A stretch of 25,919 bases of DNA. It comes from a virus. Positions 10,669 through 25,875 of the stretch are shown here, in pieces. The notes beneath the pieces were generated by a model. It made no database searches and had not been told where the DNA came from. It worked only from the letters and a program-made list of their open reading frames with translations. The position numbers and the translations under genes are program-made. The first letter of the stretch is position 1. Every line of letters starts with the position of its first letter. The stretch is from IMG/VR virus record IMGVR_UViG_3300034019_000996, positions 1-25,919 of that record; one strand, 5' to 3'.

Positions 10669-10702
10669 GGAAGTATTATAGTTGGTTGTGAGATGGAGTC
10701 AA
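10669..10702 (-). promoter_or_regulatory. Sigma70-type promoter giving a leaderless dCMP deaminase message
   Basis: On the minus strand, TTGACT (10702-10697), a 16-bp spacer and a perfect TATAAT (10680-10675) lie in the 36-bp gap after the GlsB-like stop codon. Transcription would begin about 6-7 bp after the -10 box, at or next to the A of the dCMP deaminase ATG (10668). That agrees with the absence of a ribosome binding site. It marks the switch from the membrane cassette to the nucleotide/replication unit. Confidence 0.72.
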
Positions 10703-10704
10703 GA

Positions 10705-10953
10705 CTATTTTGTAGTTAGTTTGTTATATAAAACTAAACTAAGTACGCCACCAGCAACACCCATTAAAATGCCAGCGGGCGAAACAGCCTCATAACTGCC
10801 TAATAGGTAGAGTATGGCACCACCCATATATGAACCAGCAACGCCTAACGCTACTGTTTTGACAAAACCAAAATTTTCTTCACCAGGAACTATGCTTTTA
10901 GCAATAGATCCTACAAATAAACCATATACACACCATACTAAAATATTAAACAT
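10705..10953 (-). CDS. GlsB/YeaQ/YmgE-family small membrane protein
   Basis: An 82-aa integral membrane protein with three hydrophobic segments (about residues 3-18, 30-50 and 56-76) and the glycine-rich pattern of the GlsB/YeaQ/YmgE (transglycosylase-associated) family: GLFVGSIAKSIVPGEENFGF, then LGVAGSYMGGAILYLLG and GVAGGVLSLVLY. Bacterial members are stress-linked membrane proteins of unclear biochemistry; phage copies may alter the host envelope. It overlaps the upstream gene by 8 bp (ATGTTTAA) and ends in TAG just before the promoter at 10702. Confidence 0.8.
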   Translation of the reverse strand: MFNILVWCVYGLFVGSIAKSIVPGEENFGFVKTVALGVAGSYMGGAILYLLGSYEAVSPAGILMGVAGGVLSLVLYNKLTTK

Positions 10954-11338
10954 TGGCAGCCTCCACTAAATATGATACCTCTGTGTTATCTAAGCTTTCT
11001 CCAGTATCTAATAAAGCACTGGTTAAAGCTAAACTGTATTTATTATATTGTTCTGGACTTAATTCTCTGCGTAGGATTTTTTTGATTCTCATTTTAGTGA
11101 ACCATCCACGACGCATACTGTATTCCTTTATTTCTGCTCCATACAAAGAGTACTTATCTTCTGCTGTGCAAGTAGCTGATAATTTATTCTTATTGCATTC
11201 TTGCAGAACCCTTATAACAGTTAAAATAATACTAATAATCATTAAGATAGCAATAATACTACCAAATTTTTCATCTTCTGGTATATTAGCTTTAGCTAAT
11301 ACTTTAGATCCTATAGCTTTAAGTTTTGCCTCGCTCAT
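10946..11338 (-). CDS. Single-pass membrane protein, unknown function
   Basis: A 130-aa protein with one clear transmembrane segment (about residues 27-44, GSIIAILMIISIILTVIRVL). A short basic N-terminal domain precedes it, and a C-terminal domain of about 85 residues carries two Cys (C48, C57) and a basic patch (MRRGWFTKMRIKKILRRE). Its ATG forms an ATGA overlap with the stop of the secreted Cys-rich gene. The soluble domain is mostly helical. I do not recognise a family; it belongs to the membrane-protein cassette surrounding the papain-like peptidase. Confidence 0.72.
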   Translation of the reverse strand: MSEAKLKAIGSKVLAKANIPEDEKFGSIIAILMIISIILTVIRVLQECNKNKLSATCTAEDKYSLYGAEIKEYSMRRGWFTKMRIKKILRRELSPEQYNKYSLALTSALLDTGESLDNTEVSYLVEAANV

Positions 11339-11685
11339 TGTCTTACCCTACAATTAGGACCGGTACATTGTGGATCGCTATTGATGATAATTGGCGAGTG
11401 TTGAATGATTGTTGGTTGTGGACATTTAATCTTTGATTCGCCATTTTTCTTTTCTGGTTCGCAATATCCACAGTCTACCATTTCTATACCATCACCACTT
11501 AAATATTTACCAGTACCTTTACATACTGGACAATTTTTTCTTTCATATTTTTTATCAGGCATTTCTATATGGGTAGATTTTATAATGCCTCCAGATAATA
11601 CAACAGCAGCAGTTGTTGATCCTTTATATGGAGACGATCCAAAGATTATCGTAGCAATTAGTAATAAACCAAATACCTTATTCAT
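11335..11685 (-). CDS. Exported Cys-rich protein with DnaJ-type CxxCxGxG motif
   Basis: A 116-aa protein with an N-terminal signal-like hydrophobic segment (MNKVFGLLLIATIIFGSS). The body has a CPVCKGTGK motif (C52, C55) paired with CGYC (C72, C75), resembling one half of a DnaJ zinc finger, and three more Cys (C88, C107, C112) in the tail. A DnaJ-like zinc site on an exported protein is unusual; a disulfide-bonded fold is the alternative. The start has AAGGG upstream and an ATGA overlap with the 56-aa gene; the stop makes another ATGA overlap. Function unknown. Confidence 0.72.
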   Translation of the reverse strand: MNKVFGLLLIATIIFGSSPYKGSTTAAVVLSGGIIKSTHIEMPDKKYERKNCPVCKGTGKYLSGDGIEMVDCGYCEPEKKNGESKIKCPQPTIIQHSPIIINSDPQCTGPNCRVRQ

Positions 11686-11852
11686 TTGTTTACCCTTGGA
11701 AAAATTCTTTTTCTTTTTGGTTTGGGTTTAGGATTATCAACATTATCATCAACTTCTGTATTAGACGGCATAAATAATTTCAGTACTGCTAATATAAAAG
11801 TTAACAACATACTAATCAATCGTTGCAATGCAATTTTATCTATTATTCTCAT
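11682..11852 (-). CDS. 56-aa single-pass membrane protein with basic tail
   Basis: A short gene found by tiling. ATG at 11852 lies 8 bp after the peptidase stop, with AAGGTG at good Shine-Dalgarno distance; TGA at 11684-11682 overlaps the next ATG (ATGA). The 56 residues comprise an amphipathic start (MRIIDKIALQRL), a transmembrane helix (about 13-28, ISMLLTFILAVLKLF), an acidic turn (NTEVDDNVDN) and a strongly basic, proline-rich tail (PKPKPKRKRIFPRVNK). Both junctions and the ribosome site argue strongly for expression. No family is recognised. Confidence 0.72.
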   Translation of the reverse strand: MRIIDKIALQRLISMLLTFILAVLKLFMPSNTEVDDNVDNPKPKPKRKRIFPRVNK

Positions 11853-11860
11853 AATACACC

Positions 11861-12784
11861 TTATAAGTAATCAAACCCATAATCTGGTAATTTTTGTACA
11901 GGAAATCCGTTAAAATTACTAAAGGCATATGTTCCGTTTTGTTTGATCATGCCTTCTGCTACATCGCTGTGAATTAAAAATGAACCGTCTGGAATTGGCC
12001 CCCAAGACGGGTGGCCACCATCATTCCATTTACCCCAACTATTTTGCACTAAAAAGGATGTGTCTCCATTGGTATCATCACAGGCTATCCAAGCCATACA
12101 ATGAGCCCAGCTACCACTGGTTCTGGCAAATCCCTTACTATCTCTTTTATTACTAAAACCATAATTAGAACATACGGCTATTCCATAACCATTCGCTAAA
12201 GCATCTCTCGCTTCTTCAACAGTTTTAATTAATGATACTGTTTTAATTTGATGATCATTAGCAAGATCTAAAACCTTATCCGGTACACCTCTACCGCCCC
12301 ATCCGGCACCAAGCATTCCATCATATTTAGTGAGGTCAACTACGCCATTATAGTTTTTGCGAACAAGAATTCCACCAATTTTGTTAACAAATTCAGCAGC
12401 CTTGCTACCTGTCATACCCTGACCACTCCAGCCGCGAGCACCATAAATAGCTTCTGTTGCGCCTCTGGCTATCCAACTTTCTTTTTCGCCCAATACATCA
12501 ATCTCTACTGCTCGACTAATATCACAAGCATTTCTTGTACCATGGCTTACGCAATCACCAGTAACTTGTCGTTCTTCATAAGGCTTCTTATCAAATTTTA
12601 ATACGCTTTTGTATGGCGTTGATAATTTACCTTTGCCACTATCTGTGATTCTAGAACTAGCATCACCAAAGAGTGGATATTTTAAAATTTCCATCAAGTG
12701 GTCAAATTCTAGTTGATTCCAGATGGCTCCTTGAAAGCCTTGTCTATAATTGTTATAAAGATCTACTGGTGATAAACGAGCCAT
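11861..12784 (-). CDS. Papain-like (C1 family) cysteine peptidase
   Basis: A 307-aa protein with the papain catalytic order Cys-His-Asn: C78 in QVTGDCVSHGT (the position of the papain QGxCGSCW motif), H228 in SWAHCMAW and N248 in VQNSWGKW. The region after the Asn (PSWGPIPDGSFLIHSD) matches the strand that closes the papain fold. No signal peptide or pro-domain is evident, so it is made in the cytoplasm; export would need help from a neighbour. AAGGAG precedes the start, which directly follows the upstream stop. Its place amid small membrane proteins and a holin-like gene suggests lysis, envelope modification or virion-associated proteolysis. Catalytic competence is likely; the substrate is unknown. 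Confidence 0.85.
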   Translation of the reverse strand: MARLSPVDLYNNYRQGFQGAIWNQLEFDHLMEILKYPLFGDASSRITDSGKGKLSTPYKSVLKFDKKPYEERQVTGDCVSHGTRNACDISRAVEIDVLGEKESWIARGATEAIYGARGWSGQGMTGSKAAEFVNKIGGILVRKNYNGVVDLTKYDGMLGAGWGGRGVPDKVLDLANDHQIKTVSLIKTVEEARDALANGYGIAVCSNYGFSNKRDSKGFARTSGSWAHCMAWIACDDTNGDTSFLVQNSWGKWNDGGHPSWGPIPDGSFLIHSDVAEGMIKQNGTYAFSNFNGFPVQKLPDYGFDYL

Positions 12785-13282
12785 TTATTTTGCTCCTTGT
12801 TGACAAGCCCATGCTAATGCTTTAAAACCCTCTGCTGCCTGAACTCGTGATTCTTTATTTAATGCAACACTATCGTCACCAATAGCTTCAACTATAACAG
12901 CCTTGCAAGCTTCTGCTAATTTAGGATATTTATTTTTCATATCCAATTTTAGCATAGTTCCTGCTAGTCTATTAGATTGTCTAATTTCTTCTGTATTTTT
13001 AATAACTTCATCATCACCATCTAAAGCTACAAGAGTTGCTAAGTCTACATATAAACTAGCCAATCTTTGACCATCAGTCTTACGATCAGGATCACTATCT
13101 TTTAAAATTTTAACCACTTCATCGGCCTTAGTTTTTAGTCCTTCTCTAACTGGTGCTGATAGTTCTTCAACCTCAACAACAACTGGCTTTGGACGATTAA
13201 CTAATGATCCAAGATCTGGCTTAAATAAACCAACTACTATTAATAAACCAGCTAATCCTAGTAATAATGTTTTAGTATTCAT
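12785..13282 (-). CDS. Exported or membrane-anchored helical protein
   Basis: A 165-aa protein with an N-terminal signal or anchor segment (TLLLGLAGLLIVVGLF, residues 5-20) followed by a proline/valine linker (RPKPVVVEVEEL) and a helical domain of about 120 residues (SLYVDLATLVALDGDDEV and following). No lipobox Cys is visible, so it is probably anchored by the uncleaved helix or cleaved by signal peptidase I. It is immediately followed by the papain-like peptidase gene (no gap) and starts in an ATGA overlap with the preceding gene. It could be a partner or substrate of the peptidase. Family not recognised. Confidence 0.72.
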   Translation of the reverse strand: MNTKTLLLGLAGLLIVVGLFKPDLGSLVNRPKPVVVEVEELSAPVREGLKTKADEVVKILKDSDPDRKTDGQRLASLYVDLATLVALDGDDEVIKNTEEIRQSNRLAGTMLKLDMKNKYPKLAEACKAVIVEAIGDDSVALNKESRVQAAEGFKALAWACQQGAK

Positions 13283-13656
13283 GTGTTCTCCTTATCTCCA
13301 CAAACTACAGGACTTAAGTATGGAAACATTTGATCGGCAACTTCAACTGCTTTATCGCAGCCGCATTCAGATGCTAAGTCTCGTGTTTGTTTCCAACTAA
13401 CGACTAATTTAAAAAAGATATCTTCTTTCGTTGTAACTACTGGCTTGACAGAAGGAACAACAACTGCCACAGGAGTTACTGGCTTTAATGGAGATACATT
13501 CTTAAATTTTTCTACTAATCCACCTACAAATGTTTGAACAGGGCTTAGTTTATCCTTAAATAATACCCATAGTACTAGACCAACACCAGCATATAAGGCC
13601 AAATCCATTGGTCCAACCTTGCTAGCAAACTCTTCAAAAGTTTCTGTATAATTCAT
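13279..13656 (-). CDS. Single-pass membrane protein with small C-terminal domain
   Basis: A 125-aa protein: a short acidic N-terminus, a transmembrane helix (about 18-33, DLALYAGVGLVLWVLF), a Pro/Val-rich spacer (PLKPVTPVAVVVPSVKP) and a C-terminal helical domain with a CGC pair (SECGCDKAVEVADQMFPYL). The architecture of helix, Pro/Val spacer, small domain resembles the next gene in the cassette, hinting that both display domains at a fixed distance from the membrane. ATGA overlaps are present at both ends. Function unknown. Confidence 0.72.
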   Translation of the reverse strand: MNYTETFEEFASKVGPMDLALYAGVGLVLWVLFKDKLSPVQTFVGGLVEKFKNVSPLKPVTPVAVVVPSVKPVVTTKEDIFFKLVVSWKQTRDLASECGCDKAVEVADQMFPYLSPVVCGDKENT

Positions 13657-14039
13657 AATCCAGCCTCTCTTTTAATAAAAACGCCCGTATTTCTAAAAAT
13701 TGTAACTGTAGCATCAATAGTAGCACTCACCATTATCATGAGTATATTTTTGATGTACTTATGTATAATAGGCTCAACAAGATTAGGAACAAAGGGAACG
13801 TCCACCACTAAAAATACTTTATCATAAAAACTATTTAATAAATCCATTGCTAAAGCTTTTTTATCAGGATTACTTAGATCATTACCAATAGCTTCTATAA
13901 TTTGTACAACACTAGCTGTGGTTAATTGTAATAGTTTCCACGCTTCGCCTAGAGCAAAACGCTTAACTTCATTTACTCTTTCTTTTGTGCTGACTATTAG
14001 TTTTTCTACTTCTGCTCTTATTAGTTCTTTGCTTGACAT
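13653..14039 (-). CDS. Hypothetical helical membrane-associated protein
   Basis: A 128-aa predicted helical protein with amphipathic N-terminal helices (SSKELIRAEVEKLIVSTKER) and a hydrophobic C-terminal half (VFLVVDVPFVPNLVEPIIHK, then NILMIMVSATIDATVTIF) that could lie on or cross the membrane. The start has an AGAGG Shine-Dalgarno and lies 71 bp inside the 3' end of the holin-like gene, in another frame. It ends in an ATGA overlap with the next gene. No family is recognised. It may work with the holin-like protein. Confidence 0.7.
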   Translation of the reverse strand: MSSKELIRAEVEKLIVSTKERVNEVKRFALGEAWKLLQLTTASVVQIIEAIGNDLSNPDKKALAMDLLNSFYDKVFLVVDVPFVPNLVEPIIHKYIKNILMIMVSATIDATVTIFRNTGVFIKREAGL

Positions 14040-14313
14040 CTTTTTTTACCTCTGGTTGTTCTATGAGCTTATTTGATTCGTTTTGATTACTCCACCAAAT
14101 TTTCTTAATTTCATTACGACCCTTAACATATCGAAATAGTACTGTTAATTGACCAATAATTAGTATTAATGCTTCTAAACCTCGACTAGTTTCTGCAATA
14201 AGATCTTCTTTTTGAGAATGATCATTTAGTATACCCAATAAATATAGTCCACTAAATAAGAAACTTACTAGTGTGAACCAGAATTCGCTTGTTTTGTATC
14301 CTGGTTTAATCAT
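13969..14313 (-). CDS. Holin-like small membrane protein
   Basis: A 114-aa protein with two transmembrane helices (about 12-30 and 45-63), a short polar turn between them, and a long, strongly basic C-terminal tail rich in K, R, S and N. The opening MIKPGYKTSEFWFTLVSFLF is of a type frequent in phage holin-like proteins. Holins permeabilise the inner membrane to time lysis. Against this, no endolysin is recognised next to it. The last 71 bp overlap the following gene in a different frame, so the basic tail is encoded by dual-coding DNA. It starts 3 bp after the GC-rich repeat gene. Confidence 0.65.
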   Translation of the reverse strand: MIKPGYKTSEFWFTLVSFLFSGLYLLGILNDHSQKEDLIAETSRGLEALILIIGQLTVLFRYVKGRNEIKKIWWSNQNESNKLIEQPEVKKDVKQRTNKSRSRKTNSQHKRKSK

Positions 14314-14316
14314 AAC

Positions 14317-15492
14317 TTAAATTATCCCCAGGATTGACGAACCGTTGATGCCTAACTGCGCGCGGAAAAAGGTGAACGTGCCATTTGTGATGCTATTTGT
14401 GAGTCCGGCGGTAGCCATCACAGGATCGCCATAGATTGTGAGACCGTTGCTGAAATAGCCGCCAGAAGGAATGTACGAACGGTCGTAGAACTCCGCGCTG
14501 CCGCTGACGGAGCCGCCAGTGAAGTACGAGTTGTCGTGGAACCTCGCTTCGCCGTTGAAGGTGCCGTAGGCTTGCGAGTTGTCGTAGAACGTCGCGTTGC
14601 CATTGACGGTGGCGCTGTAGTTTTGCGAGTAGTCATTGAATGTCGCGTTGTTAGTGACGGTGCCGTCGTATTCGTTGGTCGAATACTCATTGAATGTCGC
14701 GCTGTTGAGAGTGCCGTTGTTTGACGCAGTGCTGTAGAATGTGGCGTGGCCGTTGACGGTGCCGTTACTAAAGTTGTCAGCATCTAGGTAAAACGTGGCG
14801 TCTCCGCTGACGGTGCCACGGTTGCCGGTCGAACTGGTGTGGAACGTCGCGTTGTTATCGACGGTGCCGTAGTTTTTTGCATCACCGTAGAACGCGGCGC
14901 TGCCCCCGACGGTGCCGTTGTTGGGGCCGTAGAACGTCGCGCTTCCGCTAACCGTGCCGTTGTTGGCTGAAATGCTGCCGTTGAACGTCGCGTTGCCAGT
15001 GACTGTGCCGGAGACGCTGTTGTTCGAATCTTCGTTGAACGTCGCGTTGCCACTGACGGTGCCGTTGTTTTGCGAGACGCTGTTGAACGTCGCGTCTCCG
15101 CTGACGGTGCCGCTGTTTTGCCAGTTGCCGTTGAACGTCGCGTCTCGGGTGACGGTGCCGTAGTTGGTGCCGTTGCCGTCAACAAAATTGGCCCGCCCGG
15201 TATATGTCAGCGTCCTTCCTGCGGCGAGAGCCCCTCCACGGACCTCCACAGTGCCGGTGCCGGTGACCGTGATGTCCAGGTCGATATTCATGTAATGCGC
15301 GGTCAGATTGGCTACTGTTGGCTGCGCCCCAGTGTTGGTGCATTCAGGGCCGTAAATGTGAACGCTGTCGCTGCTCGTCGGCAGCGCTGCGGCAGCGTTT
15401 CGCGGATCGGCTTCGGGCGGGTCTGTCCACCAGTTGCCCAGAGTTTGCCAATCGGAGTTGCCGCCGCTGTTGTCAAAATAGAGAGTTGCCAT
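14317..15492 (-). CDS. GC-rich tandem-repeat beta-structured protein (putative adhesin/fibre)
   Basis: A 391-aa protein with an N-terminal domain (LYFDNSGGNSDWQTLGNWW, residues about 4-22) and 14 imperfect repeats of consensus GTVxGxATF, spaced 15-18 residues, between about 112 and 335. Such Asn/Gly/Thr-rich short-period repeats usually form beta-solenoids used for surface binding. The C-terminal 50 residues are non-repetitive and may form the tip. The gene is much richer in G+C than its neighbours, with GC-ending codons, suggesting recent horizontal acquisition. It starts MATLYFD after AAGGA. It lies among tail and adhesin genes, so a receptor-binding or decoration role is likely but unproven. 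Confidence 0.82.
   Translation of the reverse strand: MATLYFDNSGGNSDWQTLGNWWTDPPEADPRNAAAALPTSSDSVHIYGPECTNTGAQPTVANLTAHYMNIDLDITVTGTGTVEVRGGALAAGRTLTYTGRANFVDGNGTNYGTVTRDATFNGNWQNSGTVSGDATFNSVSQNNGTVSGNATFNEDSNNSVSGTVTGNATFNGSISANNGTVSGSATFYGPNNGTVGGSAAFYGDAKNYGTVDNNATFHTSSTGNRGTVSGDATFYLDADNFSNGTVNGHATFYSTASNNGTLNSATFNEYSTNEYDGTVTNNATFNDYSQNYSATVNGNATFYDNSQAYGTFNGEARFHDNSYFTGGSVSGSAEFYDRSYIPSGGYFSNGLTIYGDPVMATAGLTNSITNGTFTFFRAQLGINGSSILGII
14473..15165 (-). repeat. 14-unit coding repeat (GTVxGxATF)
   Basis: Fourteen degenerate units of about 45-54 bp encode the GTV-x-G-x-ATF core, at residues 112, 128, 144, 162, 179, 194, 209, 226, 244, 260, 277, 294, 310 and 327 of the host protein. The N-terminal copies are closest to consensus; the last three drift (ATVNGNATF, GTFNGEARF, GSVSGSAEF). 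All units stay in frame and spacing changes only by whole codons, which shows selection on the protein rather than simple replication slippage. Confidence 0.85.
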
Positions 15493-15507
15493 TTGTTATC
15501 CTTAAAT

Positions 15508-15819
15508 TTAGTGAGTTGGTCTTGCTGGGGGTAAAAACAAATTTTCAAGAACACTTTTGGGATCAGTTCCAAGAAGCTCTAAAATTTTAGCTTCAACCTG
15601 TGTCTGAGTATAATCACCAACATCATCATAAGCATCGCCATTCCATAATACTAGTGGACGAGGAACTGGACGAATTTGAACCATAACGCTTTTATGTTTA
15701 CTATTATCAATAATTGTAACGTCAAGTTCGTTAAGTGTGATTGGATTAAAAGTCTTAATGGTTCCGTCAGCCTTTTTGATGGCTGGTGGAGTGATTGTAA
15801 TTGGGTTTGATAAGTTCAT
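15508..15819 (-). CDS. Small phage structural protein, unknown
   Basis: A 103-aa protein with AGGAG upstream of its ATG. The N-terminal part is beta-rich (NPITITPPAIKKADGTIKTF, then LDVTIIDNSKHKSVMVQIRP), and the C-terminus is a helix (QTQVEAKILELLGTDPKSVL) ending in PPARPTH. Location between fibre-type genes suggests a small tail or fibre-attachment component. No family is recognised. It lies 13 bp after the preceding tail gene and 15 bp before the GC-rich repeat gene. Confidence 0.7.
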   Translation of the reverse strand: MNLSNPITITPPAIKKADGTIKTFNPITLNELDVTIIDNSKHKSVMVQIRPVPRPLVLWNGDAYDDVGDYTQTQVEAKILELLGTDPKSVLENLFLPPARPTH

Positions 15820-15832
15820 AATTTTCTCCTAA

Positions 15833-16297
15833 TTAATAACCGGGTACGAATGATATAATATCCCACTTGTTTCTACTTTGATCATATGTGGCTGCTAATA
15901 AATCCATAGTTCCGCTAGTGCTACTAAGTGGAAGTGGACTTGTGGCACTACTAGGAATTTTAAATTGGTTACCAAAATTAAGAGTTAAACTATTAGCGTT
16001 GTGAGAGATTCTCCAGCGTAAACTTTGACCATCTGTGGGATTAGTTGGATTAGATAAAGTACCACTAGCAGCTAACGTAAGATCAAAAATATCTCCAAGA
16101 CTAGCGTCTGTATTGATAGTACCACTAACACTACCAAGTTGAACTACTGTGGGATATCCAATACCAGCACTTATTTCACTAAGACTAATCTTTTTAGTAA
16201 CACCGCTACCAGATGGATCATCCATAAATAAGAAAACGTCATCGTTACTCAGACTGCCGCTACCTTCTGGAAATTCATTTATTCTTAAAATTGGCAT
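15833..16297 (-). CDS. Tail-fibre-associated protein with fibre-type N-terminus
   Basis: A 154-aa protein starting MPILRINEFPEGSGSLSNDD and continuing VFLFMDDPSGSGVTKKISLSEI. This is an opening commonly seen at the start of phage tail fibres, where it describes a short virion-attachment domain. The rest is a beta-rich domain (DIFDLTLAASGTLSNPTNPT, then SLRWRISHNANSLTLNFGNQ) like those in fibre tips. A strong AGGAGG precedes the start. It could be a short independent fibre or an adaptor for one of the neighbouring adhesins. Confidence 0.75.
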   Translation of the reverse strand: MPILRINEFPEGSGSLSNDDVFLFMDDPSGSGVTKKISLSEISAGIGYPTVVQLGSVSGTINTDASLGDIFDLTLAASGTLSNPTNPTDGQSLRWRISHNANSLTLNFGNQFKIPSSATSPLPLSSTSGTMDLLAATYDQSRNKWDIISFVPGY

Positions 16298-16298
16298 A

Positions 16299-16511
16299 TT
16301 AGCCTCCTACTACTGTTTCGTTACCAATACCATAATAATAAGCAGGATCATCGAATCTTTCATCATATTTAGATTGTATATCAGTTATTGTGGGTGTGTT
16401 TTGAACATAAGTATTGAGAGCAGAATATTCTCCAGTTATTGTGCAGGAGACTAGGGCTGTTCCATTTTTAAGTGGATTGGCCGAAATTGCTTTTGTGATA
16501 TCATTAGCCAT
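16299..16511 (-). CDS. Small hypothetical tail-region protein
   Basis: A 70-aa protein starting MANDITKAISANPLKNGTAL, with a tyrosine-rich C-terminal half (SKYDERFDDPAYYYGIG). AAAGG precedes the start at suitable distance, and the stop lies one base before the next gene. It is too short and unspecific for a family call. Its tight placement between fibre-type genes supports it as a minor structural protein. Confidence 0.66.
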   Translation of the reverse strand: MANDITKAISANPLKNGTALVSCTITGEYSALNTYVQNTPTITDIQSKYDERFDDPAYYYGIGNETVVGG

Positions 16512-16555
16512 ATTATTTTTCCTTTTATTAGGGGATAATTAATAATTACACCAAG

Positions 16556-17815
16556 TTATGGTGCGAAACCACCATCTGTTATAAACCACCCATAAGTTGT
16601 TAATGCTTCTCTAGCGTCTGCTCCAGCGACCGAATATTTGCTTCCTCCAAAGTTTGGACGCAAATCAGTTCTATAAGATTCTTTATTAGCGTTCCAGCCT
16701 ATGAGTAAGGCATCATAATTTTCTGTTGATAATCCTGTAGCAAATTGCATAAAACCCGTTAAGCCAGTACTAGTATTAATTCCAGAAAGATTCCATGATG
16801 CTAAGTTTTGATTAAAACTATCACAATTATTAAACATTTGATTAAAACTGGTAACTTTACTAACATTCCAATTATTAAGTGGTTGATTAAAGTTAGTACA
16901 ATTAATAAACATAGCACTCATGGTTGTAGCAGAACTTGTATTCCAATTATTTAATGGTTGATTAAAAGTAGTATTATTAGAAAATACTGATGACATATTA
17001 ATAACATTTGATACATTCCAATTATTTATATTTTGATTGAATGAGGATGACGCAAACATACTTTGCATATTGTTAACTTTGCCTACATTCCAATTAGAAA
17101 TACTATTATTATTAAAACCTGACCTATCAAACATGAAACTCATATTAATGGATGGTGTGGCTACGTTTGATCCAATATTCCAACCAGATAAATTCCCATT
17201 AAAAATTGAGGCGACACTGAACATATTACCAAAATTATTAACTTTGCCAACATTCCAGTTAGTGAGATTCTGATTAAATGATGAGCATCTTACAAACATA
17301 TTAGTCATAATAGAAACATTACTAGTATTCCAATCTGATATTGAGATATCATTAAAATTAACACAACCTATAAATAAACTCTGTAAGTTTGTTACAGCGG
17401 TTGGTATTGAACTCGGAACCTTTGTTAAATTAGTACACGAATCAAATCCACCACCTAATGAATTTAATCCTATATTACCAAAACTTAAACATTGTATTAA
17501 TTTTTCTTTTGATCCAATAACAGGAATCGTGGCACTGTGAGATAGTGTTCTCATAGTTCCAGATATTTGAACTACATAAGTACCAGAAGTGGCATATGTA
17601 TGACTTTTATAGCCTATTGTTGTATATGTGTCTGATAATCCATCACCCCAATCAATTATGACATTAGGAGATGTTCCTTGTACTGGAACATAAATAGTAT
17701 TCGCTCCATTTCCTAATGAAGTATTATAAAGTAATACTAAATTATTTGGATTATAAGTATATTCTAATTTAGTTTTAGTTGATAATAAACTATTATTTTT
17801 TATAAAAGTATTCAT
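16556..17815 (-). CDS. PKD plus DUF285 (BspA-like) repeat surface protein
   Basis: A 419-aa protein. Residues about 40-87 form a PKD-like beta sandwich (VIIDWGDGLSDTYTT then HTYATSGTYVVQI). Residues about 155-345 contain eight repeats of about 25 aa with a W-N core (DWNTSNV, NWNVGKV, GWNIGSN, NWNVSNV and so on) and MF...FN spacing, the hallmark of DUF285/BspA-type repeats. These occur on bacterial surface proteins that bind host or matrix molecules. In a phage tail block it is probably an adhesin or receptor-binding protein. No signal peptide is present, as expected for a virion protein. It starts in an ATGA overlap with the upstream tail gene. Confidence 0.86.
   Translation of the reverse strand: MNTFIKNNSLLSTKTKLEYTYNPNNLVLLYNTSLGNGANTIYVPVQGTSPNVIIDWGDGLSDTYTTIGYKSHTYATSGTYVVQISGTMRTLSHSATIPVIGSKEKLIQCLSFGNIGLNSLGGGFDSCTNLTKVPSSIPTAVTNLQSLFIGCVNFNDISISDWNTSNVSIMTNMFVRCSSFNQNLTNWNVGKVNNFGNMFSVASIFNGNLSGWNIGSNVATPSINMSFMFDRSGFNNNSISNWNVGKVNNMQSMFASSSFNQNINNWNVSNVINMSSVFSNNTTFNQPLNNWNTSSATTMSAMFINCTNFNQPLNNWNVSKVTSFNQMFNNCDSFNQNLASWNLSGINTSTGLTGFMQFATGLSTENYDALLIGWNANKESYRTDLRPNFGGSKYSVAGADAREALTTYGWFITDGGFAP
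16781..17335 (-). repeat. DUF285 repeat array (8 units)
   Basis: Eight in-frame units of about 75 bp encode the W-N-containing DUF285 repeat at residues 161, 186, 211, 241, 265, 290, 315 and 340. One unit (211 to 241) is longer by about 5 residues. At the DNA level the copies share short words such as those encoding NNWNV but are well diverged, so the array is not freshly duplicated. Confidence 0.75.
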
Positions 17816-18306
17816 AATTGACTAGCTATGATAAATCCTTGATCAATTTGTTCACTAGTCAATCCTAATGCCGCACCTAGTGTGTCTATTAATGGGTGAT
17901 ATCTTTCGATATATGGAGCATATTCCCATTCAACCTGTGTTTTTTGTCTTAATATAGGATCCTCTATAGTATTAATAATATTGACTACATTATTTAAATC
18001 TATATTATTATCAATTAACCATAAACGCACCTGTCTTGCACTAATATTTTCTGGTACAATAATTGGAGCAGTAATCCATGTGCGAATTATATCAACATAT
18101 GGCTTGTCTAAATCCACTACTCTTTGCGAAATATTTTCTACGGTGTTATCTGGTTGTGGTGGACTATCACTACGAACAGTATAATAACCACCCTCCGCTA
18201 ATATTGATATATCTAAATTATCACCAGTGATCACTGTTCCATTTTGCAGAGTAATGCTAGATGGTGGACTATTAATTACTTGTTGATTATGAATATTATA
18301 ATACAT
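17812..18306 (-). CDS. Tail protein, paralogue of the gene at 18308-18622, with C-terminal extension
   Basis: A 164-aa protein. Its first 80 residues (MYYNIHNQQVINS to VVDLDKPYVDIIRTWI) align with the N-terminus of the next upstream gene, so they are paralogues. The C-terminal half (ISARQVRLWLIDNNIDLNNV to GLTSEQIDQGFIIASQL) is a helical domain found at the ends of phage tail or fibre-accessory proteins. ATGA overlap with the DUF285 gene suggests coupled synthesis, perhaps as an assembly or adaptor protein for it. The exact role is inference. Confidence 0.72.
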   Translation of the reverse strand: MYYNIHNQQVINSPPSSITLQNGTVITGDNLDISILAEGGYYTVRSDSPPQPDNTVENISQRVVDLDKPYVDIIRTWITAPIIVPENISARQVRLWLIDNNIDLNNVVNIINTIEDPILRQKTQVEWEYAPYIERYHPLIDTLGAALGLTSEQIDQGFIIASQL

Positions 18307-18307
18307 T

Positions 18308-18622
18308 TTATTCCTCTGATGGATTATTGGGAACAGTGATATTATTTACTGGAGAATTATTAACTGGTATTTCATTATCTAAAATCCATACTCTACTAAT
18401 ATCAGCATATGGTTTATCTAGAGTTACCACTCGCTTATTCTCATCTTCATGATAGTCTGGTCCAGGAGACTGATTATCATTTCGTATAGTATAATAATTA
18501 TGATCGGCCCACAAGTCAATATTATTAGCAGTATCAAAATTAAAATAGAAGTTACCATCAGGCCCAATGCTATTTTTAGGTAATGTGTTTATAATGATTT
18601 GATTTTTATTATCATAATACAT
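18308..18622 (-). CDS. Tail protein, short paralogue of the gene at 17812-18306
   Basis: A 104-aa protein starting MYYDNKNQIIINTLP that shares the MYYxxxNQ opening, a YYTIRxD strand and the VVTLDKPYADISRVWI segment with its downstream neighbour. It lacks the helical C-terminal domain and instead ends in an Asn/Pro-rich tail (NNSPVNNITVPNNPSEE). AAGGAT precedes the start. The arrangement looks like tandem duplication followed by loss or replacement of the C-terminal domain. It lies between the long fibre gene and its paralogue, so it is probably a tail accessory protein. Confidence 0.7.
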   Translation of the reverse strand: MYYDNKNQIIINTLPKNSIGPDGNFYFNFDTANNIDLWADHNYYTIRNDNQSPGPDYHEDENKRVVTLDKPYADISRVWILDNEIPVNNSPVNNITVPNNPSEE

Positions 18623-23911: not shown

Positions 23912-24481
23912 TCAATAACTGGTCTTAGCCTTGTAGTTATCATTGTAAGGAGTCTTAGCACCACTCATATAGGTCAATTCGCCAGGAACACTGGAGGTTG
24001 GAGCGGCTGCTTCGTCTGTTGCCAATGTGTCTACTGAGACTTGTGGATAGCCAGCATCAAACTCATTTGTATAACGATTGTATTTGTTCTCTCTAATGGC
24101 TGTGGTAAGTTTGCGAGTACGAAGTGTTTCTAGTTTATTTATACTACGAATAGTATCCTGATCATTACCTGGTGTTTTGATACTATTATTACTTAGTCCA
24201 GCTAATTCATCAGTAATTAAACTTGAAATTGGTTTGACATGATTATGGGCAAAAACACCACCAGAAACAGCCTTACCAGCATAATCTTTTACTGTTACTG
24301 TATCTTCAACAACCTTCGATGCAAAAGCATCTACTACTGGACTTGGTGTTGTAACACTTTCTACAATATTTGATGTGGCTGTTCCGTTGGCCTTCATTGT
24401 GCCGTGTGCATTATTGGCTTCTAAAAAAGAACCATAGCCATTATTTGTTAAAGCGGAACCGTTGACTTGTGCTGTGGCCAT
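23912..24481 (-). CDS. Putative structural protein, isolated between two hairpins
   Basis: A 189-aa Ala/Thr/Asn/Val-rich protein with no Cys, no membrane helix and no recognisable fold motif. It opens MATAQVNGSALTNNGYGSFL and contains TVKDYAGKAVSGGVFAHNHV and a basic central helix (INKLETLRTRKLTTAIRENK). Composition suits an abundant virion protein such as a decoration or scaffold-related protein. GGAG lies 7 nt before the ATG. It is the only gene here with true gaps on both sides (52 and 85 bp), each carrying a hairpin, so it may be transcribed or processed separately for high expression. Function is inference. Confidence 0.72.
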   Translation of the reverse strand: MATAQVNGSALTNNGYGSFLEANNAHGTMKANGTATSNIVESVTTPSPVVDAFASKVVEDTVTVKDYAGKAVSGGVFAHNHVKPISSLITDELAGLSNNSIKTPGNDQDTIRSINKLETLRTRKLTTAIRENKYNRYTNEFDAGYPQVSVDTLATDEAAAPTSSVPGELTYMSGAKTPYNDNYKAKTSY

Positions 24482-24533: not shown

Positions 24534-25205
24534 TTATTTCTCTTTACGACTAGAATTGAAAAGCATGAAATTTTTCAGGCTATGGATGGAGGTTGTTCTA
24601 AAACCAAATAGGCCAGATTTTATAATCGTTTCAAAATGCTTATCTGTCCAGATATTTCCTGTGGATATAACATTTAAGTCTTTAGAGTTTTGATGCAAAA
24701 AAATGGATGCTAGGATATTATCGGCTAAATTATCTAAAAAAAATCCAGTAGATGGATAAACATGTGTAATTTGATGATTCTCAAAAATTTCACATATTTT
24801 TTTAAGACAATGATGGTCAAACATTCTATATTCTAAGATATATTTAACACTTAAATTATGTTCTATACAAAATTCTTGAGTAGACTTTATATCTTCACGA
24901 ATTTTATCATACTTTCTATTGGCTGCTAAATTTTGTGGCATAGCCATATCTATACAATTTGTACCAATTTTAAAAGCTTGTTCTATTGCACACTTTCGTG
25001 TTTTAAGATCTGAAATTCCTAATGGATAATCAATTAGGCAAGATAATATCTTGTTAGAAGATGGGCCTAATAAATTCTTAGCTGTTTTAATTAAATAAAA
25101 TGGTACAGTAATACTATTTATAGGATAACTGATTATTTCTTGTATAATTTGTTTTGCGTCTGATTCTGATATATCCGTAGATGTTATAGCAAAGTCAATA
25201 TACAT
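24534..25205 (-). CDS. DeoC-fold (deoxyribose-phosphate aldolase-like) protein lacking the catalytic lysines
   Basis: A 223-aa TIM-barrel protein aligning by eye to DeoC: SCLIDYPLGISDLKTRKCAI matches the xIGFPLG strand and following helix, CIDMAMP (D86) matches the conserved DExDMVI segment, VKYILEYRMF matches VILETGLL, and HVYPSTGFF matches FVKTSTGF. The Schiff-base lysine of DeoC (K167 in E. coli) is Tyr150 here, and the second lysine (K201, in KASGGIR) aligns with Val179 in VISTGNI. It is therefore unlikely to cleave deoxyribose-5-phosphate by the standard mechanism. The ATG is 1 bp after the ClpP-like stop (TAATATG). It may bind a sugar phosphate or act in assembly; both are inference. 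Confidence 0.75.
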   Translation of the reverse strand: MYIDFAITSTDISESDAKQIIQEIISYPINSITVPFYLIKTAKNLLGPSSNKILSCLIDYPLGISDLKTRKCAIEQAFKIGTNCIDMAMPQNLAANRKYDKIREDIKSTQEFCIEHNLSVKYILEYRMFDHHCLKKICEIFENHQITHVYPSTGFFLDNLADNILASIFLHQNSKDLNVISTGNIWTDKHFETIIKSGLFGFRTTSIHSLKNFMLFNSSRKEK

Positions 25206-25206
25206 A

Positions 25207-25875
25207 TTATTTTGATTTTTTCATTAAGTTTTTGATATAATCGATATTAGGATATCTCTTAGTGCCAAGTATTCCATCAGCAAAACCGTATCTAACCGCT
25301 TCTTCTGCTGTTAAAATCCAATCTCTTTTAGTTGCTAATTGACTCACAATATGTTTTCTGGCCATCATTTTTTTCCAATTTTTCTCTTTAGATATCATAC
25401 TATTTATACACTTTTCTGTAAATATATCAATCATCTTTTCGCTCTCTTTTTCGCTCCATTGAACCATGCTTAAAGCTGCTTTATGTTCATTATCCACGCT
25501 AATTGACCCATAATGAACCAAAAAATTGGTATTAGGAGTTAAGATTCTTAAATCCGCCGCCTGCAACAAAACAGTACTGCTGGACTCTACTTTAGCAGAT
25601 GCTACTATAATAGTTTTACTTTTACTGGACTTGATAGCATCATAAATACCTAGACAATCTTGCCAATCCCCTCCAGGTAAATGCATGTGTATAAGAATAG
25701 GATCTAATGATAGTAAATTAAGATATCTTAAATTTTTTTCAAATACTATAGCTGATCTATAGTCTACACCAGACTCATCTTCTTCTTCATTAAAATAAGA
25801 ATGTAAATAAATTTCTCTATTATCTATATCTATATTATAGTCATGAATATTATGTAGTTGATTGATTGGTGTCAT
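25207..25875 (-). CDS. ClpP-like serine peptidase (S14 fold)
   Basis: A 222-aa ClpP/crotonase-fold peptidase. Visible elements: the oxyanion strand HLPGGDW (G68, G69), the nucleophile region ESSSTVLLQAAD (Ser98 by alignment; Ser99 and Ser100 adjacent), the catalytic His in NFLVHYGSIS (H121) and Asp in TKRDWILTAEEAVRYGFADG (D185), with the last segment strongly ClpP-like. In phages such enzymes usually act as capsid maturation proteases rather than with Clp ATPases. No capsid gene lies next to it in this window; more genes continue beyond the edge. The start at 25875 has a modest AGG upstream and overlaps the preceding gene by 26 bp. Confidence 0.87.
   Translation of the reverse strand: MTPINQLHNIHDYNIDIDNREIYLHSYFNEEEDESGVDYRSAIVFEKNLRYLNLLSLDPILIHMHLPGGDWQDCLGIYDAIKSSKSKTIIVASAKVESSSTVLLQAADLRILTPNTNFLVHYGSISVDNEHKAALSMVQWSEKESEKMIDIFTEKCINSMISKEKNWKKMMARKHIVSQLATKRDWILTAEEAVRYGFADGILGTKRYPNIDYIKNLMKKSK

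Follow-up and report, generated by a model that had tools for sequence, protein, structure and literature searches.

Mycobacteriophage LysA endolysins carry predicted papain-family N5 or other N-terminal peptidase domains, and some have no catalytic domain of a kind other than peptidase (PMC3314691), which is a precedent for a papain-like peptidase in the exit of a phage from its host. The present analysis concerns a cassette of nine small genes, one of them encoding a papain-like peptidase (PEP), at positions 10705–14313 on the minus strand of the IMG/VR virus record IMGVR_UViG_3300034019_000996, whose whole length of 25,919 bases is called the window below. The nine genes appear to be expressed together, as a conserved unit of late type, in a large uncultured lineage of freshwater phages; most likely, if only tentatively, they make up all or a central part of the machinery for host exit (lysis) in that lineage. 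Literature searches brought up no account of this cassette.

Composition of the cassette

The original prediction, made from the DNA sequence, was of nine consecutive coupled genes, and all nine open reading frames (ORFs) were confirmed at their coordinates. In order of transcription, and with transmembrane abbreviated to TM, they are:

hol114, 13969–14313 (-): holin-like protein with two TM segments, whose C-terminal tail is basic; first gene of the cassette
hel128, 13653–14039 (-): helical protein, hydrophobic in its C-terminal half and distantly matching a PHROG holin family
TM125, 13279–13656 (-): one TM helix at the N-terminus; the C-terminal 45 aa form a conserved domain that has two invariant Cys (from alignment and hydropathy)
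TM165, 12785–13282 (-): N-terminal TM anchor followed by a predicted five-helix bundle (AlphaFold2 model, pLDDT 78)
PEP, 11861–12784 (-): 307-aa papain-like (C1A fold) cysteine peptidase with Q73/C78/H228/N248 and no signal peptide
TM56, 11682–11852 (-): short protein with one TM (a single hydropathic segment) and a basic tail
CxxC116, 11335–11685 (-): Cys-rich, probably exported protein with one CxxCxGxG and one CxxC and without a lipobox
TM130, 10946–11338 (-): one strong TM helix with a basic flank
GlsB82, 10705–10953 (-): GlsB/YeaQ-like (Transgly_assoc) protein with three TM; last gene of the cassette

Six of the eight junctions overlap (four 4-nt ATGA-type overlaps, one of 71 nt and one of 8 nt), TM165 and PEP abut, and one junction is an 8-nt gap; the claim that almost every junction is of the ATGA type was thus overstated, only four being exact 4-nt overlaps.

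Two hydropathic segments are present in 20 of 21 hol114 relatives and the N-terminus reads M[IV]KPG in 82/82 loci, and comparison with PHROG holins gave no convincing match, so that its holin likeness is one of topology. The C-terminal hydropathic segments of hel128, two or three in number, are weak, and 11 of the 21 members of its family weakly match the holin family phrog_6918 (best E 2.2e-5, against only 0.018 for the protein of the window itself). A single hydropathic segment is found in most TM125 relatives and in 21/21 TM130 relatives, and hydropathy places a TM segment in 23/23 relatives of TM165, for which a fold search with the AlphaFold2 model returned nothing above background. CxxC116 has a single weak N-terminal, signal-like hydropathic segment, and exactly one CxxCxGxG, the motif that the original prediction had noted in the window, followed by CxxC in 22/22 relatives; a DnaJ zinc finger has four CxxCxGxG repeats, and none of the 22 relatives has more than one. 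The GlsB/YeaQ likeness of the last protein agrees with three hydropathic (TM) segments and with a match to PF04226 (Transgly_assoc), whose score of 22.6 bits (E 1.3e-4) lies just below the curated cut-off of 25.3; a transglycosylase-associated protein of an Acinetobacter phage is 38% identical to it. PEP has no hydropathic membrane segment. Pfam matches to SecG, restriction-alleviation and Gag-like families were at chance level and were rejected.

Conservation and distribution of the block

Searching IMG/VR with PEP gave 149 relatives, of which the best 80 (75–100% identity, on contigs of up to 238 kb) were kept, and a PEP profile search gave 431 stretches encoding a relative. Synteny was examined on 82 distinct IMG/VR contigs with enough flanking DNA, obtained with PEP, TM165 or hol114 as bait. 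The order hol114-hel128-TM125-TM165-PEP-(TM56)-CxxC116-TM130-GlsB82 is kept in 82/82 of them, with hol114, hel128, TM125, TM165 and PEP always present, all eight main genes present in 80 of the 82, and TM56 detected in 50/82 loci. With TM130 as bait, GlsB82 comes next in 65 of the 65 loci with room, and the remaining cassette adjoins in 60 of these 65, the TM130–GlsB82 pair standing apart in four. Beyond the block, the distance to the next conserved genes differs by kilobases. Scattered independent cargo was rejected as an explanation, because loci baited with PEP, TM165 and hol114 give the same ordered block and those baited with TM130 mostly do; the question raised by the original prediction, whether the genes co-occur in other phages or are scattered independently, is thereby answered in favour of co-occurrence.

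The major capsid protein (MCP), used as bait instead, gave at least 600 matches, and cassette genes were found on 4/4 newly examined contigs of at least 90 kb, one of which has no PEP on the contig and carries only TM130 and a fragment of a PEP paralogue near its end; no PEP was seen on shorter capsid-baited contigs, which probably end before it. The number of these matches and of the PEP-relative stretches makes the lineage look common. Among 50,697 phage records, no convincing relative of PEP, TM165, hol114 or hel128 was found in isolate phages. The ratio of non-synonymous to synonymous substitution rates (dN/dS) is far below 1 for all nine genes, as expected under purifying selection, with a value of 0.109 for PEP, compared with 0.130 for RecA and 0.140 for dCMP deaminase.

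PEP as a papain-like peptidase

Modelling and active-site conservation indicate that PEP is a papain-like (C1A fold) cysteine peptidase that looks active. Its AlphaFold2 model is of modest confidence (pLDDT 56, pTM 0.62), and the top matches of that model in the PDB are all C1A peptidases, including Der p 1 (Z 13.5) and cathepsin B (Z 13.1), with a Foldseek match to C1A structures of E 7.5e-5; LysA proteins are among its structural matches. The intact C78/H228/N248 noted in the original prediction was invariant in 80/80 of the first set, and together with Q73 it is invariant in 99/99 distinct relatives of normal length, N248 lying in an NSWG motif. The sequence has no papain-family match in Pfam, NCBIfam or PDB sequences, the last also searched with a profile, and PEP is therefore termed papain-like by fold and motif, not as a member of a named sequence family. 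C20 and C126 co-vary, making a disulphide possible, but separate just two clades, and the pair was given no weight.

A PEP paralogue of 515–627 aa is encoded after GlsB82 in 10/80 loci. It has Gly or Thr at the catalytic Cys position and 23–27 Cys residues, by which it is classed as a predicted pseudo-peptidase, and a search with it found only its own close copies. Examples are:

L012:12092–13702, L029:14630–16513, L044:12189–13736, L064:8069–9655 and others: Cys-rich PEP paralogues that lack the catalytic Cys

Inteins at the active site of PEP relatives

Six distinct PEP ORFs of relatives are 650–687 aa long, lengthened by in-frame inserts, which rules out start-codon errors as the source of their length. 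In five of the six, drawn from seven contigs by tblastn, the insert lies directly before the catalytic C78 and belongs to one of two lineages that are 32–34% identical; in the sixth, it lies between H228 and C229. The inserts begin with Cys and end with Asn (HN or NN), after which comes Cys. PI-SceI is matched by the first type (E 1.9e-6); the insert at H228 has no PDB match, and its naming as an intein is based on its end motifs and on 23–24% identity to the other inserts. PEP of the window has no intein.

L206:8730–9848, L306:2172–3290, L327:6190–7326, L375:3734–4852, L365:172–1290, L312:10381–11475: inteins in PEP relatives

Compared with other C/S/T sites, those occupied by native inteins are nearer to active-site residues, at a mean of 8.3 vs 21.1 Angstrom (PMC3359363), and the inserts at C78 and H228 therefore fit a peptidase whose active site matters. 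Their position suggests that an active PEP enzyme is of importance to these phages, and splicing might regulate it.

Genome context and upstream motifs

Ten contigs of 150–230 kb, whole or nearly so, were compared; among the first five, 83 gene families recur in four or more. G003, G004 and G006 have the same gene order in circular permutation and were for this reason taken as near-complete. The cassette belongs to the long block that also holds ClpP and the genes of nucleotide metabolism and replication, and runs in the direction opposite to the TerL-portal-MCP-tail module.

A motif tTGGTGTATA (GGTGTAWW) occurs at most 100 nt upstream of hol114 in 51/85 loci, at a median of 45 nt before the start, where shuffled sequence would give 0.67 and random windows 1.9%. 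Across the ten genomes it precedes 23/193 structural-module genes vs 1/213 replication genes (Fisher p 3.5e-7), as well as hol114 in 6/10 and a trypsin-like protease gene in 7/10, with 0.6% expected per window. On the other side of the cassette, TTGACY-16/17-TATAAT (at least 10/12) precedes the dCMP deaminase gene in 41/74 loci vs 2.7% in shuffles; this predicted sigma70-type promoter reads as the start of the next unit, the downstream dCMP-deaminase operon, apart from the cassette. Given the motif common to structural genes and the separate promoter, the cassette looks as if it shares its regulation with the virion genes and not with the early operon downstream, and hence late. The view of the original prediction that the nine genes form one undescribed envelope-directed unit is well supported by the synteny, by the promoter-like motif upstream and the separate promoter after it, and by the lack of relatives of PEP, TM165, hol114 and hel128 in isolate phages. 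The motif and promoter sites of the window are:

GGTGTAAT, 16545–16552 (-): nearest upstream copy of the structural-gene-type motif; adhesin/fibre-like genes lie between this copy and hol114 in the window
GGTGTAWW, 24532 (-): about 50 nt before the gene at 23912–24481
GGTGTAWW, 11860 (-): where TM56 begins; 5/10 genomes likewise have it upstream of the gene in the TM56 position
TTGACT-16-TATAAT, 10675–10702 (-): predicted sigma70-type promoter between the cassette and the dCMP deaminase gene; 11/12 match

Elsewhere in the window, the following were observed:

14317–18622: variable cargo of adhesin/fibre-like type on the upstream side of the cassette, with a bactofilin-like repeat protein (14317–15492) and a PARCEL/DUF285-type repeat protein (16556–17815)
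24534–25205: gene next to the ClpP-like gene, with a TIM-barrel aldolase look by eye and no Pfam match
25207–25875: ClpP-like protein of head-maturation-protease type, outside the virion module

Search for lysis enzymes

The statement that no endolysin is present holds for the window, within which no known endolysin family was found, and, by family profiles, for the related near-complete genomes. Phage lysozyme (PF00959) gave no match over cut-off in 32 contigs, and Amidase_2, Amidase_3, SLT, M23, CHAP and NlpC/P60 gave none in 18 contigs; a classical endolysin elsewhere, which would speak against a protease-based exit, was thus recognised in none of the 18–32 related contigs. GH19 stands outside this count of seven families, as its control gave no match anywhere and the search was uninformative. 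Pfam scans of the ~140 ORFs of the near-complete G006 gave trypsin, subtilase, replication, nucleotide and glycosyltransferase families and no peptidoglycan hydrolase among the matches listed, which are the best 25 families in each of two tables, with eight weaker families outside them.

A trypsin-like protease is encoded in 10/10 genomes, with a signal-like hydrophobic stretch at its N-terminus, and a subtilase in 8/10. Trypsin-like/subtilase genes of relatives are:

L095:3880–4635 (-), L098:8190–9422 (-), L106:16984–17922 (-)

Function of the cassette and alternative explanations

The best-supported function, which is favoured with some reserve, is that of a late, envelope-directed exit cassette in which PEP would stand in place of an endolysin. 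The lysis or exit function offered by the original prediction is therefore kept as the preferred one of several and in conditional terms. hel128 and/or hol114 would act late in infection as holins and make the inner membrane permeable; soluble PEP, lacking an export signal, would then cross the membrane and cut envelope proteins or peptide cross-links, the job done elsewhere by an endolysin; and TM165, TM125, CxxC116, TM130 and GlsB82 could be partners, exported or anchored in the envelope, by which PEP is localised or regulated or which contribute to breaking the envelope. Arguing for this are the ordered block in 82/82 contigs, the low dN/dS of PEP (0.109), its C1A fold and its catalytic tetrad in 99/99 relatives, the active-site inteins, the motif that the cassette has in common with structural genes and the trypsin-like protease, the separate promoter of the next operon, the holin likeness of hel128, and the hydrolase families that were searched for and not found.

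Several observations weigh against an exit cassette. A divergent endolysin can be missed by profile searches, and eight weaker families lie outside the two G006 tables of best 25. Sub-threshold M15_4 matches occur in 11/18 contigs, as stretches of ~20–35 residues within a ~630-aa protein that was not accepted as an endolysin, and one sub-threshold NlpC/P60 match occurs in G014. The holin match of hel128 is weak, and the six cassette families tested have no lipobox and thus include no outer-membrane spanin with one, the search having been for lipoboxes and not for unimolecular or embedded spanins elsewhere. The cassette adjoins nucleotide-metabolism genes and not the virion module, and its upstream motif, which also precedes PhoH in 7/10 genomes, is no proof that it is expressed late. 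The cassette is more conserved than known lysis genes usually are, and the case for lysis is computational throughout.

The upstream motif and the high conservation would also fit a virion-associated set, in which virus particles would carry PEP and some of the membrane proteins and release them on infection, so that the envelope is opened and DNA can enter. The Cys-rich, Cys-dead paralogue in 10/80 loci suggests a structural use of the fold, and the TM proteins might form a channel. This is unlikely, as the cassette does not lie beside the TerL-portal-MCP-tail module, the active site of PEP is invariant, and the signal- or anchor-like N-termini of several proteins would be odd for packaged ones. 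That PEP is instead a processing protease, with the cassette partners or virion proteins as its targets and the membrane genes as substrates or scaffold, would agree with the obligate neighbourhood of the cassette genes, with strong purifying selection and with the common use of maturation proteases by phages; it is rated quite unlikely, since the genome already has a gene for a ClpP-like protein of head-maturation-protease type and eight small membrane or exported partners would be unusual for head maturation; nor was a conserved cleavage site found, though no search for one was made.

The original prediction also raised remodelling of the host envelope during infection, as superinfection exclusion or, in a related form, protection of the infected cell. 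The many small membrane proteins would suit such a role, as would the GlsB/YeaQ-like protein, whose relatives are membrane stress proteins. Superinfection exclusion genes are usually variable cargo, whereas the cassette is a near-invariant core under purifying selection, and exclusion is made less likely by an upstream motif that is common to structural genes and nearly absent from replication genes; remodelling is accordingly given the lowest probability of the explanations weighed here.

Returning to the exit cassette, a more far-reaching form would have the lineage leave its host by proteolysis and not by peptidoglycan hydrolysis, with holin-gated PEP, its envelope partners and the same-motif trypsin-like protease acting together and, in some lineages, intein splicing switching PEP on; this form is doubtful. 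The lack of a recognised peptidoglycan hydrolase in these phages raises the question of how they exit their hosts, for which the cassette is a concrete, testable candidate. If the exit function is true, a papain-type protease working in the absence of any recognisable wall hydrolase would join the known means of phage lysis, and protein splicing, by way of the inteins at the active site, might time it.

Host and lineage

Shine-Dalgarno-like sites precede 38–41% of genes vs 9–12% inside genes, and this usage, together with sigma70-type promoters, argues against a Bacteroidota host. L082, the contig of this lineage that pointed to such a host, is binned in a Flavobacteriales metagenome-assembled genome (PKDP01000010.1) and is probably mis-binned. 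There is no close isolate, the best terminase match being ~25% identical. Three phage subtilases start with an LG[IF]ExLEN[KR] motif, which we take to resemble planctomycete export motifs; NCBIfam gave no such domain, and a Planctomycetota host is speculation.

Comparison with known systems

The bS21-encoding freshwater jumbo phages (PMC9723584) are likewise large, AT-rich, freshwater tailed phages known from metagenomes; membership of that group was rejected, as no bS21 was found in the 18 contigs here and the host signals argue against Bacteroidota. C1A peptidases of other phages and giant viruses in BFVD share the papain fold, and some of them, from uncultured tailed phages, can be aligned with the greater part of PEP, but with only 10–20% identity, and none was found to be functionally characterised. 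Compared with holin-endolysin-spanin cassettes, the locus has nine genes, no lipobox o-spanin and far higher conservation, and its hydrolase is a papain-like peptidase and not a recognisable peptidoglycan hydrolase; it resembles them in placing small membrane genes, including a holin-like member, beside a soluble hydrolase without a signal peptide, and in an upstream motif common to structural genes. PEP is a single-domain, C1A-type protein with no detectable sequence similarity to LysA, which has wall-binding or second catalytic domains, and what the two have in common is a predicted papain-family peptidase domain, found in LysA within a phage lysis enzyme (PMC3314691).

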